This document shows positions 13,102-17,772 of a DNA stretch of 38,625 nt, piece by piece. Position 1 is the first letter of the stretch. The number at the start of each line of letters is the position of its first letter. Below the pieces are notes generated by a model. That model saw nothing but the letters and a program-made list of their open reading frames with translations. It searched no databases and was not told the origin of the DNA. Source of the DNA: Bacillota bacterium. GTDB taxonomy: Bacteria > Bacillota > Bacilli > Alicyclobacillales > SLC66. The translations under genes and the position numbers were made by a program. The stretch spans positions 1 to 38,625 of the forward strand of contig JAPNUP010000105.1 of NCBI GenBank assembly GCA_026627345.1. The letters run 5' to 3'.

Positions 13102-14124
13102 TTATACACTCGGAAACCACTGACGTTCACCCGTGTATAGATTGACCAGTCGCGTGCCGTTGTAGATCGGACGGTGGTTGACCTCCCGGATCGTCACGGT
13201 ACAGTCATGCACCGCAAAGGAGACATCCACGCCTCCACGCGTCATAGCAGCCGAGGTGCCATCGACGATTTGAAACAGGCGCAGCATGGGCAACAGACGG
13301 CGTGCGAAAGTGGAGGGCAATTCCTGCTCCCCGTGATGATGGTAGCGGATGACATCGACCACATCTTGTTTCTGTCCATAATTGAATTGCGCCATGTCCG
13401 CGCTGCGATCCGCGTGCAATTTCCCCTCTTCAAAGACCACCTTCGGATCCACCACATCGCCTACGTGCAAATCCGGCTGTGACTTCCCCAAATCATGGTA
13501 GACAAACGCCTGAACGAGATCATCTTTCTCGATCCCTATTAAACGGGTCACACCTTGAGCTGTCAATTGCGAGAACAGCTTCAGACAATTGACTACATGC
13601 CGGTAGCCACCATCTTTGACGATGCCGGTAATCGTGATCTGCTTAGTCTTCGGATCGAACCGATCCCGGTACTCAGGTATCGATTTGAGTCGATACTCCA
13701 CTTTGCTGTTAGGCAGTGTCAACGCAAATGCCAGATCGAGTTCTTGTTCCATAGCCATCAGATGCGTGACATCTTCGCCGGTGATCAGCACCCCATCCGT
13801 AGCATTGCTGATGCGCACGGGAACGATGTTGATCGCAAGGATACGTCCATCCTGAGTCGCCCGCGTGATTCCTTTAATCGGCACTCCGGATTCGAGCACG
13901 TCGTGAACTTTCGTACGCTTACGATCTGCATAGTGCTTCCAGACATCGAGTTCGGAAAAGAAATCTTTCCCTTGATAGGAAATATCGGACAAGCCGAGGA
14001 TCTGCTTGGCAGAGTCATTGACAAAGGTCACGCGCAGTTGGTCGTCCAACAAGACGAGAATCTCGCTCATGGCATCCGCCATCGGTTGAAAAAGGAGTTC
14101 TCGATGATCCAACAAGTTCGTCAT
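13102..14124 (-). CDS. PAS-HD domain protein under cyclic-di-GMP riboswitch control
   Basis: 340 residues. A PAS domain (about 12-125) is followed by an HD-type metal-dependent phosphohydrolase domain (about 165-300). Candidate ligands are His176, His210-Asp211 in Y-H-D-L-G-K, His262-264 in Y-H-H-H-G-E, and Asp288 in I-V-D-G-T-S. The H-D-L-G-K and H-H-x-G-E segments recall HD-GYP phosphodiesterases, but the G-Y-P triplet is absent. ATG 14124 has AAAGGGGGCGG upstream. The leader carries a c-di-GMP-I aptamer and an intrinsic terminator, tying expression to that second messenger. A role as sensor or phosphodiesterase in nucleotide signalling is an inference from this. Confidence 0.8.
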   Translation of the reverse strand: MTNLLDHRELLFQPMADAMSEILVLLDDQLRVTFVNDSAKQILGLSDISYQGKDFFSELDVWKHYADRKRTKVHDVLESGVPIKGITRATQDGRILAINIVPVRISNATDGVLITGEDVTHLMAMEQELDLAFALTLPNSKVEYRLKSIPEYRDRFDPKTKQITITGIVKDGGYRHVVNCLKLFSQLTAQGVTRLIGIEKDDLVQAFVYHDLGKSQPDLHVGDVVDPKVVFEEGKLHADRSADMAQFNYGQKQDVVDVIRYHHHGEQELPSTFARRLLPMLRLFQIVDGTSAAMTRGGVDVSFAVHDCTVTIREVNHRPIYNGTRLVNLYTGERQWFPSV

Positions 14125-14189: not shown

Positions 14190-14278
14190 AAATGCCTGCA
14201 ACCCGGCGATCATAGACTCTCGTCCTTAGACCCGTGGCTTTGCGCCCGCACCTTTCGCTGCGTTTGCCCTATGTCCCT
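14190..14278 (-). promoter_or_regulatory. Cyclic-di-GMP-I (GEMM-I) riboswitch aptamer
   Basis: The minus strand carries the family's conserved blocks in order: AGGGCAAAC (14262-14270), a GCGAAAGG tetraloop hairpin, GCGCAAAGCCACGGGTCTAAGG (14224-14245, including the invariant GCAAAGCC and the tetraloop-receptor region), and CGCCGGGTTGC near 14198-14208. This matches the known GEMM-I consensus closely. It is followed by a terminator hairpin and then the PAS-HD gene, so the RNA should control transcription read-through in response to c-di-GMP. Whether ligand turns the gene on or off needs structure probing or folding. Confidence 0.9.
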
Positions 14279-14379: not shown

Positions 14380-15114
14380 TTAGATTCTCCCGTGAAATAA
14401 GGATGTAATGATCGGGCCAGTCTTCCAATCGGCCAGTGTTTTCAGGAGATTGCCATCCGTGGTGATCAAAACGACCGCGATCAATAGCATCAACACACCG
14501 GCCATACGGTCCACCCATACCATACGCGTACCTAATCGACGAAAAGCCGCAACCAATGGCTTGGAAAACACGAAGGTCATCATAAACATAGCGGAAAACC
14601 CGATACTGTAGAGGATGAGAACCAACAGCTTTTCAAGAAATGATCCATGGATTCCGACAACTAAAGTCAGCGCCACAATCAGCGTCACTTGCCATCCAAA
14701 AGCTAACGTGAACCCGGTCAGGTACGACCGCCAGTACGTGGCACGCCCGCTGTGTGAGCGCGACGCCGAGAACCCCGCATCGTGCAACCAAGGCAAGCGC
14801 AGTACCCCCAGTCGCTGGAGCCCCAAGACGAGGAGCAGAACGCCCCCGACCACACCTGCATACCCCATCCATCCGCCGAAAGCTTTGCCTACGAGAATCG
14901 CGGCAATGCCCAAGGCGATGACCGTTGTAGAGAATCCTGTGACAAATGATAAACTATGTTTCAGTAGATACCACGTTTTGTCCGGACCCGCCGCAGCCTC
15001 GGCGGAGGTGCCGCTCAGGTACCCAATGTACGCTGGCAGCACACTCAAGAGTCACGGTGCGCAAAAGGATACGGCTCCTGCGATTGCGGAAAACGCCAAT
15101 AAAACGATCTGCAT
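14380..15114 (-). CDS. CcdA/DsbD-family membrane thiol transporter with in-frame TGA at the conserved Cys (selenoprotein candidate or nonsense mutant)
   Basis: From ATG 15114 (GGAGG six bases upstream) the frame reads 20 codons to a TGA at 15052-15054, then runs on without interruption for 223 codons as a typical CcdA protein with six hydrophobic helices. The junction is S-F-C-A-P-[TGA]-L-L-S-V-L-P-A-Y-I-G-Y-L-S-G. The family normally has S-P-C-V-L-P-L-L-P there, so TGA replaces the redox Cys and creates C-x-x-[TGA]. The second family Cys (G-W-T-P-C) is G-W-Q-V-T here. A downstream-only start (TTG 15048) has no ribosome site and would delete helix 1. It is last in a sulfur-transfer operon. 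Sec insertion, nonsense mutation or base error all remain possible. Confidence 0.7.
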
Positions 15115-15142
15115 TCCATGCCTCCTTCCTCGCACTTTAGCC

Positions 15143-16315
15143 TTACACGGTCCGACTACGCAGGATGCGCGCCGCCTCTGTACACGCAGTCAATTTGTCC
15201 ATCGCAATGTCTGCCGAATTCATCGGACGCTGAGCAAATGTCCCAAAGCCGCAGTCCGGATTGAGAAACACGCGATCTGCAGACACGTACTGCAAGGCGG
15301 CATTGACTTTATCGACGATACTGTCCACCGTTTCCACTTGCGTGACTCGCGGGTTGACTACACCAAGTCCTATCTCTGATTGCGCCAGAGACGCGAGCGC
15401 AGACAAATCCCCCGCTCGCGGGGTCGCATATTCAAGGACATACTGATCTATATCCAGGTTCACCAGATGAGGGAGCAGCGGTTCGTAGGAACCGCGTAGC
15501 AGCACGTCCTCCTGGGTACTCCAGTTTCCTCGACACACGTGCACACCTAATCTGGTTCCGCGTCCGCGAAGTCCTCGCGTCACGTCATTAATCAGCTCTG
15601 TTGCAAAGCGGAGTTCTTCCTGCGCATCAGCCTTCGCGGCAAGCGCCCCACACATGAACGTGCGATTGGCATTTTTCTGAGTAAATACCAATTCGGTCAA
15701 AACCGGTTCATCTAGTTGGATAAAGTCTACTCCCGCTTCGATCAGCTCTCCGATCTCCTCGCGCAAGATGCGCACAACATCTAGGGCCAACTCCTCTTTA
15801 GTCGGATACGCCCTTTGCGACAACCCTTCGACCCACATCGACCGAGTCAATAGGTACGGACCCGGTAAAGCGACCTTGATCGCTCGATCTGTGTGCTGGC
15901 GTAAAAACAGGTATTCTTGCAGAGCCAATGGTTTAGCTCTGCGGATTTTCCCTACGGCTGCGGGGTTCGAGAGCGAGTAGGCCGGTACGTCCAATGAACC
16001 TAGGATCTCTTCAAACCCTGCTTTATCCTCCACGTACTCCAGCAGTTGCGCCACTGTGAGCATGTCGACGTGTTCCAGTTTGTCAGCTACAAAGGAAATA
16101 AAGTTGTCGCGTCGTTGCTCTCCATCAGAGACCAGATCGACGCCCGCCTGTTCTTGCATGCGCAAACACGCCAGCGTCGCTTCTGCAGCCACTCGCTCGA
16201 ATTCTTCTTCTGTTATCCGACCCGCGCGCTTCTCGCGCAAAGCGCGTAAAACGTCTCTGGACCTAGGCCAACTTCCCACCACAGTCACCGGAAACAACGG
16301 TAAAGATCCTGGCAT
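15143..16315 (-). CDS. Cobalamin-independent methionine synthase II family protein (MetE C-terminal-like)
   Basis: 390 residues, equivalent to the catalytic C-terminal half of MetE. V-G-S-W-P-R-S at the N-terminus, D-G-E-Q-R-R-D-N, F-I-Q-L-D-E-P-V-L, H-V-C-R-G-N (zinc-ligand His and Cys) and N-P-D-C-G-F-G-T (third zinc Cys) are all visible. Stand-alone members of this family transfer methyl groups to thiols but often lack the folate-binding N-terminal half. The true acceptor or donor may therefore not be homocysteine and methyltetrahydrofolate. ATG 16315 has AAAGGAGGCG upstream. It sits between the TusA-OsmC and CcdA-like genes with short gaps, which suggests a sulfur-related rather than purely methionine-biosynthetic job. 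Confidence 0.85.
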   Translation of the reverse strand: MPGSLPLFPVTVVGSWPRSRDVLRALREKRAGRITEEEFERVAAEATLACLRMQEQAGVDLVSDGEQRRDNFISFVADKLEHVDMLTVAQLLEYVEDKAGFEEILGSLDVPAYSLSNPAAVGKIRRAKPLALQEYLFLRQHTDRAIKVALPGPYLLTRSMWVEGLSQRAYPTKEELALDVVRILREEIGELIEAGVDFIQLDEPVLTELVFTQKNANRTFMCGALAAKADAQEELRFATELINDVTRGLRGRGTRLGVHVCRGNWSTQEDVLLRGSYEPLLPHLVNLDIDQYVLEYATPRAGDLSALASLAQSEIGLGVVNPRVTQVETVDSIVDKVNAALQYVSADRVFLNPDCGFGTFAQRPMNSADIAMDKLTACTEAARILRSRTV

Positions 16316-16342: not shown

Positions 16343-17059
16343 TTACAATGTCACCTCACAGCGAATGTCGATCTGCGCTGCCCGAGACAGCGTCTGGTAG
16401 AGTGGCGAGTGTGCCAGAACAGATTGCCAGAGACCGTGAATACTGGCTTCATCCTCCACCGTCGCGATATAGATCGTGCCGCTGACGTTTTGCACAGAAG
16501 GATCCCCATCCTCGATACCCAAGTGCGCAAGCACGTTGCCCAGTGAGGCGCGCAGCACGCATTCAACCTCATCGAGCACATGATTCTCCCGGGAGGCTGC
16601 GGCGCGCAGCCCTACCACCAGATCGGATCCAAGCGCCGCGAGCAGCAGATCCATCGCAGAGGGTGCCTCGACTTTCGCACTGAAATCCGCAGGCTGGCCT
16701 GCAGTGAAGCTGTGATTGCGCGCGAACACTTGAGCCGTCAGACCCGGCATAGCGCGAACGCGCACCGACCAGCGATAGCCCCGGGCTGCATCGAGATCGG
16801 ACTGAACGTCACTCTGACCCGCCCCTTTTTGCACAAGGTAGGAGGTGTGTGTCTCGTGCGGGGACACAGCCACGAGACTATGCCCGACCATTCGACACCA
16901 TGCCGGCAAGTCTTGTTCGACCGATGGTTCCCGACTCCGAATCTCCAGGATGCCACCCTCGCGGATCGGATCCATCGCTTTTTTAATGATCAGCAGCAGC
17001 CCGGACCCGCAATCCAAGTCACCGCCGTCACATACACCATCCACGTTTTGCTCTTCCAT
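16343..17059 (-). CDS. TusA-OsmC fusion protein
   Basis: 238 residues. Residues 1-75 form a TusA/SirA-like domain with Cys17 in L-D-C-G-S-G and I-I-K-K-A-M following. About 90-235 is an OsmC-like domain (A-P-S-A-M-D-L-L-L-A-A-L-G-S-D-L, where the family peroxidatic Cys would follow). Two oddities are visible: the usual TusA C-P-x-P is C-G-S-G, and the OsmC helix has G-S-D-L-V-V with no Cys. Sulfur-carrier chemistry through Cys17 is plausible, while peroxide reduction by the OsmC part is doubtful. ATG 17059 has GAGG five bases upstream; ATG 17062 is adjacent. It starts 16 bases after the DsrE-like stop. Confidence 0.8.
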   Translation of the reverse strand: MEEQNVDGVCDGGDLDCGSGLLLIIKKAMDPIREGGILEIRSREPSVEQDLPAWCRMVGHSLVAVSPHETHTSYLVQKGAGQSDVQSDLDAARGYRWSVRVRAMPGLTAQVFARNHSFTAGQPADFSAKVEAPSAMDLLLAALGSDLVVGLRAAASRENHVLDEVECVLRASLGNVLAHLGIEDGDPSVQNVSGTIYIATVEDEASIHGLWQSVLAHSPLYQTLSRAAQIDIRCEVTL

Positions 17060-17075
17060 CATGACCTCGCGATTG

Positions 17076-17435
17076 TCAGTATGTAATGCAAGAAGCGCCT
17101 TGTGACAAAAATTCGACCAACTTCGCTCCGCCGACAATGACGGCGCCAGGGATCAAGTCGTTCTCCGTCAAGCCCCGTTTTTTAAAACACGGACTGCACA
17201 CCCACACGGTGCCGCCAGCTTCTTGATAATTGTGTAGCAAGTCGGCCAAAGGTGCGAAGCCTTCCTCATGAATGTCTGAAACATAGCCTTTTTGCCCAAG
17301 GTAAACGCCTTCTGTACTGAGAAAGACTACCGTCTCTTGCCCTGAAGCCACTGCAGCGTTTGCCACCACCATGCCAACGGTTGCCTTGTCTGCATCATCT
17401 TTTGCATGCGTGATACTGATCGCCAGCTTTGCCAC
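17076..17435 (-). CDS. DsrE/DsrF-like sulfur-relay protein
   Basis: 119 residues of the DsrE fold. The N-terminal beta strand A-I-S-I-T-H is followed by A-N-A-A-V-A-S-G-Q-E-T-V-V-F-L-S-T-E-G-V, and C-S-P-C (Cys80 and Cys83) sits at the position of the active-site cysteine of DsrE-type carriers. Such proteins accept persulfide sulfur and exchange it with TusA partners, which matches its TusA-like neighbours on both sides. The start is GTG 17435 with AAGGAGGAA about ten bases upstream. Second gene of the operon. Confidence 0.85.
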   Translation of the reverse strand: MAKLAISITHAKDDADKATVGMVVANAAVASGQETVVFLSTEGVYLGQKGYVSDIHEEGFAPLADLLHNYQEAGGTVWVCSPCFKKRGLTENDLIPGAVIVGGAKLVEFLSQGASCITY

Positions 17436-17458
17436 GATACAATTCCTCCTTCACCTGT

Positions 17459-17698
17459 TTAAAGTGCTGCACCCGTGCGACGAATGAAATAGTGGCGAGT
17501 GCCTTCCACATCGCGGGTCTCCACCAAGTGTTGGGCGCGCAAAGTACACCAGGCAGGAATATCGACCCGCGCCCCGATGTCGTAGGAGACGACCTCGATC
17601 ATCTGTCCCACTTCCATCCGACGCATGGTCAAGAACAAATGCATGACCAACTCACCGCAACCTGTTGGCCCGGCATCATACACGATATCTGCTTGCAC
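17459..17698 (-). CDS. TusA/SirA-like small sulfur-carrier protein (atypical)
   Basis: 79 residues when started at GTG 17698, which has AGGGAGG eight bases upstream and places the first beta strand (A-D-I-V-Y-D-A-G) right at the N-terminus, as in TusA. ATG 17746 gives a longer, less convincing form. Cys14 in P-T-G-C-G-E-L occupies the place of the sulfur-accepting Cys, but the C-P-x-P motif is C-G-E-L, the same Cys-Gly change seen in the downstream fusion protein. A second Cys lies in P-A-W-C, also shared with the fusion. First gene of the sulfur operon. Confidence 0.75.
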   Translation of the reverse strand: MQADIVYDAGPTGCGELVMHLFLTMRRMEVGQMIEVVSYDIGARVDIPAWCTLRAQHLVETRDVEGTRHYFIRRTGAAL

Positions 17699-17772
17699 CT
17701 GCGCATCCTCCCTCATATCAGAGACCTGCCACAAACGCCTCGTCATGCTTTCACACCAAGCGCTTCTACAAG

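Follow-up and report, generated by a model that had tools for sequence, protein, structure and literature searches.

A CcdA-like gene with a conserved in-frame TGA at its TM1 redox position is predicted to encode a selenoprotein with a C-x-x-U motif

CcdA is an electron carrier with a six-helix membrane fold, related to the transmembrane domain of DsbD, and has a pair of redox cysteines placed on two helices, one in TM1 and one in TM4. A 2026 selenoprotein catalogue lists 119 families or subfamilies, none of which is CcdA (PMC13188914), and no paper naming CcdA as a selenoprotein was found by title and start of abstract in the open-access literature. TsoB, a rhodanese/DsbD fusion-like selenoprotein, is one distant precedent for a Sec form of a DsbD-like protein. 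A second system of relevance is YedE/YedF, in which YedF fuses TusA-like and DsrE-like domains (PMC5322559). Here we describe a CcdA-like gene, termed Sec-CcdA, in a window of 38,625 nucleotides (the whole stretch of DNA that was analysed). The codon at its TM1 redox position is TGA, and TusA-like and DsrE-like proteins are encoded nearby (Table 1).

The preliminary description of this locus had placed the start at an ATG with GGAGG upstream, followed by TGA at codon 21 and a frame that then stays open. All of this is evident in the sequence. The frame closes with TAA at 14382-14380 and the TGA is its sole interruption. TM1 begins S-F-C-A-P-[TGA]-L-L-S-V-L-P-A-Y-I-G-Y-L-S-G, codons 19-20 being Ala-Pro. 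On the sequence evidence set out below, the gene almost certainly encodes a selenoprotein in which UGA codon 21 is read as Sec, and very likely one that combines this residue with a CcdA-type redox site.

Table 1. Features of the Sec-CcdA locus (positions in the window).
Feature	Position	Strand	Basis or remark
Sec-CcdA gene	14380..15114	minus	244 codons plus TAA, TGA codon 21 read through
Ribosome site GGAGG	15121..15125	minus	sequence; six bases ahead of ATG 15114-15112
Cys18 codon TGC (C-A-P-U), putative partner of Sec21	15061..15063	minus	Cys in 6/6 TGA genes, 0/93 ordinary CcdA
TGA codon 21, putative Sec at the position of the TM1 redox Cys in CcdA	15052..15054	minus	TGA in 6/6 homologues
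Hairpin after the TGA, likely SECIS	15005..15046	minus	core stem 15042-15008, apical loop 15027-15023
Thr144 codon, site of the TM4 redox Cys in ordinary CcdA	14683..14685	minus	comparison with ordinary CcdA
MetE-like gene (Meth_synt_2 domain only)	15143..16315	minus	PF01717, 120.7 bits
TusA-OsmC fusion gene	16343..17137	minus	PF01206, 34.8 bits; PF02566, 30.4 bits
DsrE-like gene	17076..17435	minus	PF02635, 67.7 bits; conserved neighbour, 74-86% identity
TusA-like gene	17459..17746	minus	PF01206, 31.7 bits

Five other genomes hold a homologue with a single in-frame TGA at the corresponding codon, at 31-71% identity and, with the source genome, spanning three families. One belongs to another genus of the same family (G015, 63% identity) and one, from Alicyclobacillus sp. 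SP_1 (G044), to another family of the same order (71% identity). The latter was the one match in a scan of named genomes. The remaining three (G578, G568 and G481; 31-35% identity) come from another family of the class. Together with the gene studied here, they were set against 93 ordinary CcdA sequences returned by the same searches, a count that overstates independence because some are near-copies. All 93 carry Cys at residue 21 and at residue 144 (in TM4), with F, L, I, V or A at residue 18. Each of the six TGA genes instead has Cys at residue 18, TGA at residue 21 and Thr or Ile at residue 144. The exchange of the TM4 Cys for Cys18 was thus without exception across both sets. In sequence terms, a local C-x-x-U pair, its members about one helical turn from each other, has taken the place of the inter-helix Cys pair. 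The preliminary description had already recognised a TGA on the invariant family Cys, a C-x-x-[TGA] layout with Cys18, and Thr in place of the second family Cys; the first is borne out by the 93 ordinary sequences, and the other two recur in every TGA gene as Cys18 and the loss of the TM4 Cys.

Kinship with CcdA is clear at the level of profiles. A profile of Sec-CcdA and its homologues matched Thermus thermophilus CcdA (PDB 5vkv) over residues 4-228 with an E value of 1.5e-15. Only the G015 homologue passed the Pfam DsbD_TM (PF02683) cut-off (31.4 versus 27.1 bits), and the protein from the source genome had no Pfam match. The same genome also encodes a second, ordinary CcdA (C87), which is 31% identical and has no in-frame stop. 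Among 90 CcdA sequences the six TGA genes formed one clade (support 100/99). Judged by sequence, Sec-CcdA belongs to a CcdA-related family and is not a standard CcdA, because in each of the six genes TGA stands in place of the TM1 Cys and Thr or Ile in place of the TM4 Cys.

The gene neighbourhood was also compared. Genes for DsrE, TusA-OsmC and MetE-like proteins lie beside Sec-CcdA in every carrier, and a separate TusA gene is near it in all carriers except G015. The TusA-like and DsrE-like context pointed out in the preliminary description is thus conserved. Gene order depends on the clade, with Sec-CcdA after the MetE-like gene in the close clade and before TusA in the other. In a relative, G597 (C23; L147 1500-1647, L174), the cluster is kept, and of Sec-CcdA only about 48 codons remain from the C-terminal end. 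The MetE-like gene of this genome matches in two frames, as though components of the system were being lost in step. The constant neighbours and this apparent joint decay speak for a common role in the handling of sulfur (or selenium).

Further features of the neighbourhood were recorded. The true start of the TusA-OsmC gene is probably downstream of the listed TTG at 17137. Both TusA-like domains (16343-17746) have C-G-(E/S) in place of the usual TusA motif C-P-x-P (PMC5322559), marking an unusual TusA subfamily. A c-di-GMP-I riboswitch aptamer (14194-14278, minus strand; Rfam RF01051, 69.1 bits) lies between Sec-CcdA and a PAS-HD gene at 13102-14124, and probably controls the latter.

We propose that the cell's SelA, SelB, tRNA-Sec and SelD insert selenocysteine at UGA codon 21, aided by the hairpin just after the UGA. 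Sec21 and Cys18 would then form a C-x-x-U redox pair inside TM1, replacing the TM1/TM4 Cys pair. Reducing equivalents would be passed across the membrane via a selenenylsulfide/dithiol-type cycle at Cys18-Sec21, and the recipient of the electrons would be the sulfur-handling system of the co-encoded TusA, DsrE, TusA-OsmC and MetE-like proteins. Four things can be read from the genomes: a conserved UGA, the Sec machinery, an exchange of residues and a gene cluster. From these we infer Sec insertion, the C-x-x-U chemistry and the electron-carrier role. On balance we lean slightly towards Sec-CcdA being a C-x-x-U electron carrier serving this TusA/DsrE/TusA-OsmC/MetE-like cluster. More tentatively, it may represent a new Sec family that acts inside the membrane, in which the Cys pair has become a one-helix C-x-x-U and serves a so far undescribed sulfur (or selenium) pathway built on TusA-DsrE-OsmC-MetE as its dedicated selenium-dependent relay.

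The selenoprotein could instead import a sulfur or selenium compound across the membrane and pass sulfane sulfur (or selenium) on to TusA/DsrE, with Cys18/Sec21 as the relay site. The constant TusA and DsrE neighbours would suit such a role, as would loss of the TM4 Cys, which ordinary CcdA needs for its electron shuttle. YeeE/TsuA, thought to work with the TusA-like protein YeeD, offers a model for import of this kind. A Sec-containing YeeE/YedE transporter family is moreover listed in the 2026 catalogue (PMC13188914). However, the homology of Sec-CcdA is to CcdA, an electron carrier, and not to YeeE/YedE, and the TM1 redox position is kept. An AlphaFold model predicted six long helices, and as a poor model (pLDDT 49) was of no help in choosing between carrier and transporter. 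We consider an importer the main alternative to the carrier, but unlikely.

The C-x-x-U carrier would depend on selenocysteine being made and inserted in this bacterium. The source genome holds selA (588 bits), selB (389 bits), selD (333 bits) and a tRNA with anticodon TCA, identified as tRNA-Sec by both ARAGORN and Rfam (53.2 bits against a gathering score of 47). The preliminary description had named absence of this machinery as a ground for refuting a selenoprotein, and with all four genes present that ground falls away. The selD gene has one in-frame TGA (L070, G000:C152:29951-30877), followed by a hairpin of standard form, GGUCC-GGG-GGACC, and is itself a selenoprotein gene. Thus, the Sec machinery appears to be in use. 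Two selD types occur among relatives, with G016 and G017 having both. The tRNA-Sec gene (L001 1459-1555, G000:C98) is immediately preceded by a tyrosine-recombinase-like integrase gene (197-1342), an arrangement suggestive of integration at tRNA-Sec. All five of the other Sec-CcdA carriers have selA. Most selA-positive genomes of the source genome's family are without a Sec-CcdA gene, and the wider spread of selA indicates that Sec-CcdA is an accessory gene.

The same searches bear on whether a suppressor tRNA, or misreading, might put Cys or Trp at the UGA. In other bacteria a tRNA-Cys with a UCA anticodon is known, and the residue at this position is Cys in every ordinary CcdA. However, the sole UCA tRNA in the tRNA-Sec search was tRNA-Sec itself, with a long variable arm and accompanied by the full selA/selB/selD set. 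The remaining seven loci read in that search were ordinary tRNAs. Sec would also explain the retention of TGA, and not TGC or TGT, in all six genes. Insertion of another amino acid is thus highly improbable.

Selenocysteine at codon 21 would also call for a SECIS element after the TGA. The preliminary description had put forward a hairpin at 15028-15044. It proved weak (-3.1 kcal/mol over a 27-nt stretch, z +0.8) and is not kept in the homologues. It was dropped as unstable and unconserved, the hairpin at 15046-15005 (-23.2 kcal/mol, z -4.0) being the better candidate. When the 16 codons that follow the TGA were recoded synonymously 1000 times, no variant reached the stability of the native sequence (p < 0.001). 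The same test gave p = 0.013 for G015, 0.002 for G044 and 0.009 for G568, and weak values in two of the three distant homologues (G578, 0.475; G481, 0.086). The ordinary CcdA of the source genome gave p = 0.47. The combined value over the six sequences, which are not independent, was about 6e-7. Two compensatory pairs were found in the close clade (three close homologues), G-C to A-U and C-G to U-A.

A published rule for bacterial SECIS elements places the loop 16-37 nt from the TGA, with G in the first two loop bases and an MFE of <= -7.5 kcal/mol (PMC13188914). Here the loop starts 24 nt after the TGA, and both spacing and energy are within the rule. An invariant G (column 31; 15024 here) is found within the loop or at its edge in each of the six RNAs, but in this one it falls outside the first two loop bases. 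For G578, G568 and G481 there are alternative loops that fit the G rule, differing in energy by no more than about 1-2 kcal/mol. RNAalifold returned only -1.9 kcal/mol over the six RNAs, compared with -13.6 and -11.2 kcal/mol within the two clades, indicating that the hairpin elements have drifted. One common helix for all six was rejected on these energies. The stem register differs between the two clades. The hairpin is a likely, if unproven, SECIS that departs from the strict published rule in the place of this G.

Conservation of the TGA itself was assessed across the six genes, where it occupies one alignment column within an invariant F-C-A-P-[TGA]. The preliminary description had asked which codon the relatives use here, and in all five it is TGA, not TGC or TGT. 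That five homologues, all from other genera, share it at this codon excludes chance. Codon comparison downstream of the TGA found synonymous change near saturation (pS 0.71-0.86) with dN of 0.16-0.87, and dN of 0.07-0.83 upstream, over only 20 codons. Both parts of the gene are therefore under protein constraint, as expected of one protein. A nonsense mutation, a base error or initiation further downstream might be suggested by the 222-aa ORF from TTG 15048 in the mechanical ORF list and by the truncated gene remnant in G597, but the first two are ruled out by an identical TGA in six species at near-saturated synonymous sites with protein conserved on both sides, and the TTG start would cut into TM1 and remove Cys18 from a conserved stretch (codons 1-20, F-C-A-P invariant), leaving this explanation a negligible chance.

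We also looked for a Cys form of the Sec-CcdA subfamily. None stood out in 399 genomes of the class, where scores drop from 134 bits (the last TGA form) to 95 bits (ordinary CcdA), and none was found in 398 genomes of the phylum. The Cys/Sec pairing thus rests on ordinary CcdA. Among the matches listed in a plasmid search with Sec-CcdA, all were below 60% identity and the best was annotated CcdA.

Membership of known selenoprotein families was checked against NCBIfam 20.0. Only TsoB (NF045694) was matched, weakly, by the three close homologues (17.8-44.6 bits, profile positions 189-392 only). Membership of TsoB was rejected, as these scores are far below the curated cut-off of 805 bits and there is no rhodanese domain. 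TsoB itself was not found above its cut-off in the 398 genomes of the phylum. Membership of YedF was also rejected, since TusA and DsrE are encoded separately and TIGR03527 was not among the matches listed. By the 2026 catalogue and NCBIfam 20.0, the stand-alone C-x-x-U CcdA is a new selenoprotein family. Because it is missing from both, automatic gene callers are likely to lose its first ~20 residues and its active site. The proposal would put Sec into a redox site expected to lie within the membrane, and the coordinated rewiring of that site would amount to a natural experiment on electron carriage by CcdA/DsbD proteins. It also provides a testable link between selenium and the conserved TusA-DsrE-OsmC-MetE cluster.

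Compared with known systems, Sec-CcdA resembles the CcdA/DsbD transmembrane domain (PF02683; 5vkv) in length and in a TM1 motif with Pro before the redox residue. It differs in having TGA for the TM1 redox Cys, Cys at residue 18 and no TM4 Cys. TsoB is likewise a predicted selenoprotein with a DsbD-like stretch, but has two Sec residues (UxxxxU) according to the catalogue (PMC13188914) and a rhodanese part that Sec-CcdA lacks. As in YedE/YedF, a membrane protein is linked with TusA-like and DsrE-like domains, but here that membrane protein is CcdA-like and not YedE-like.
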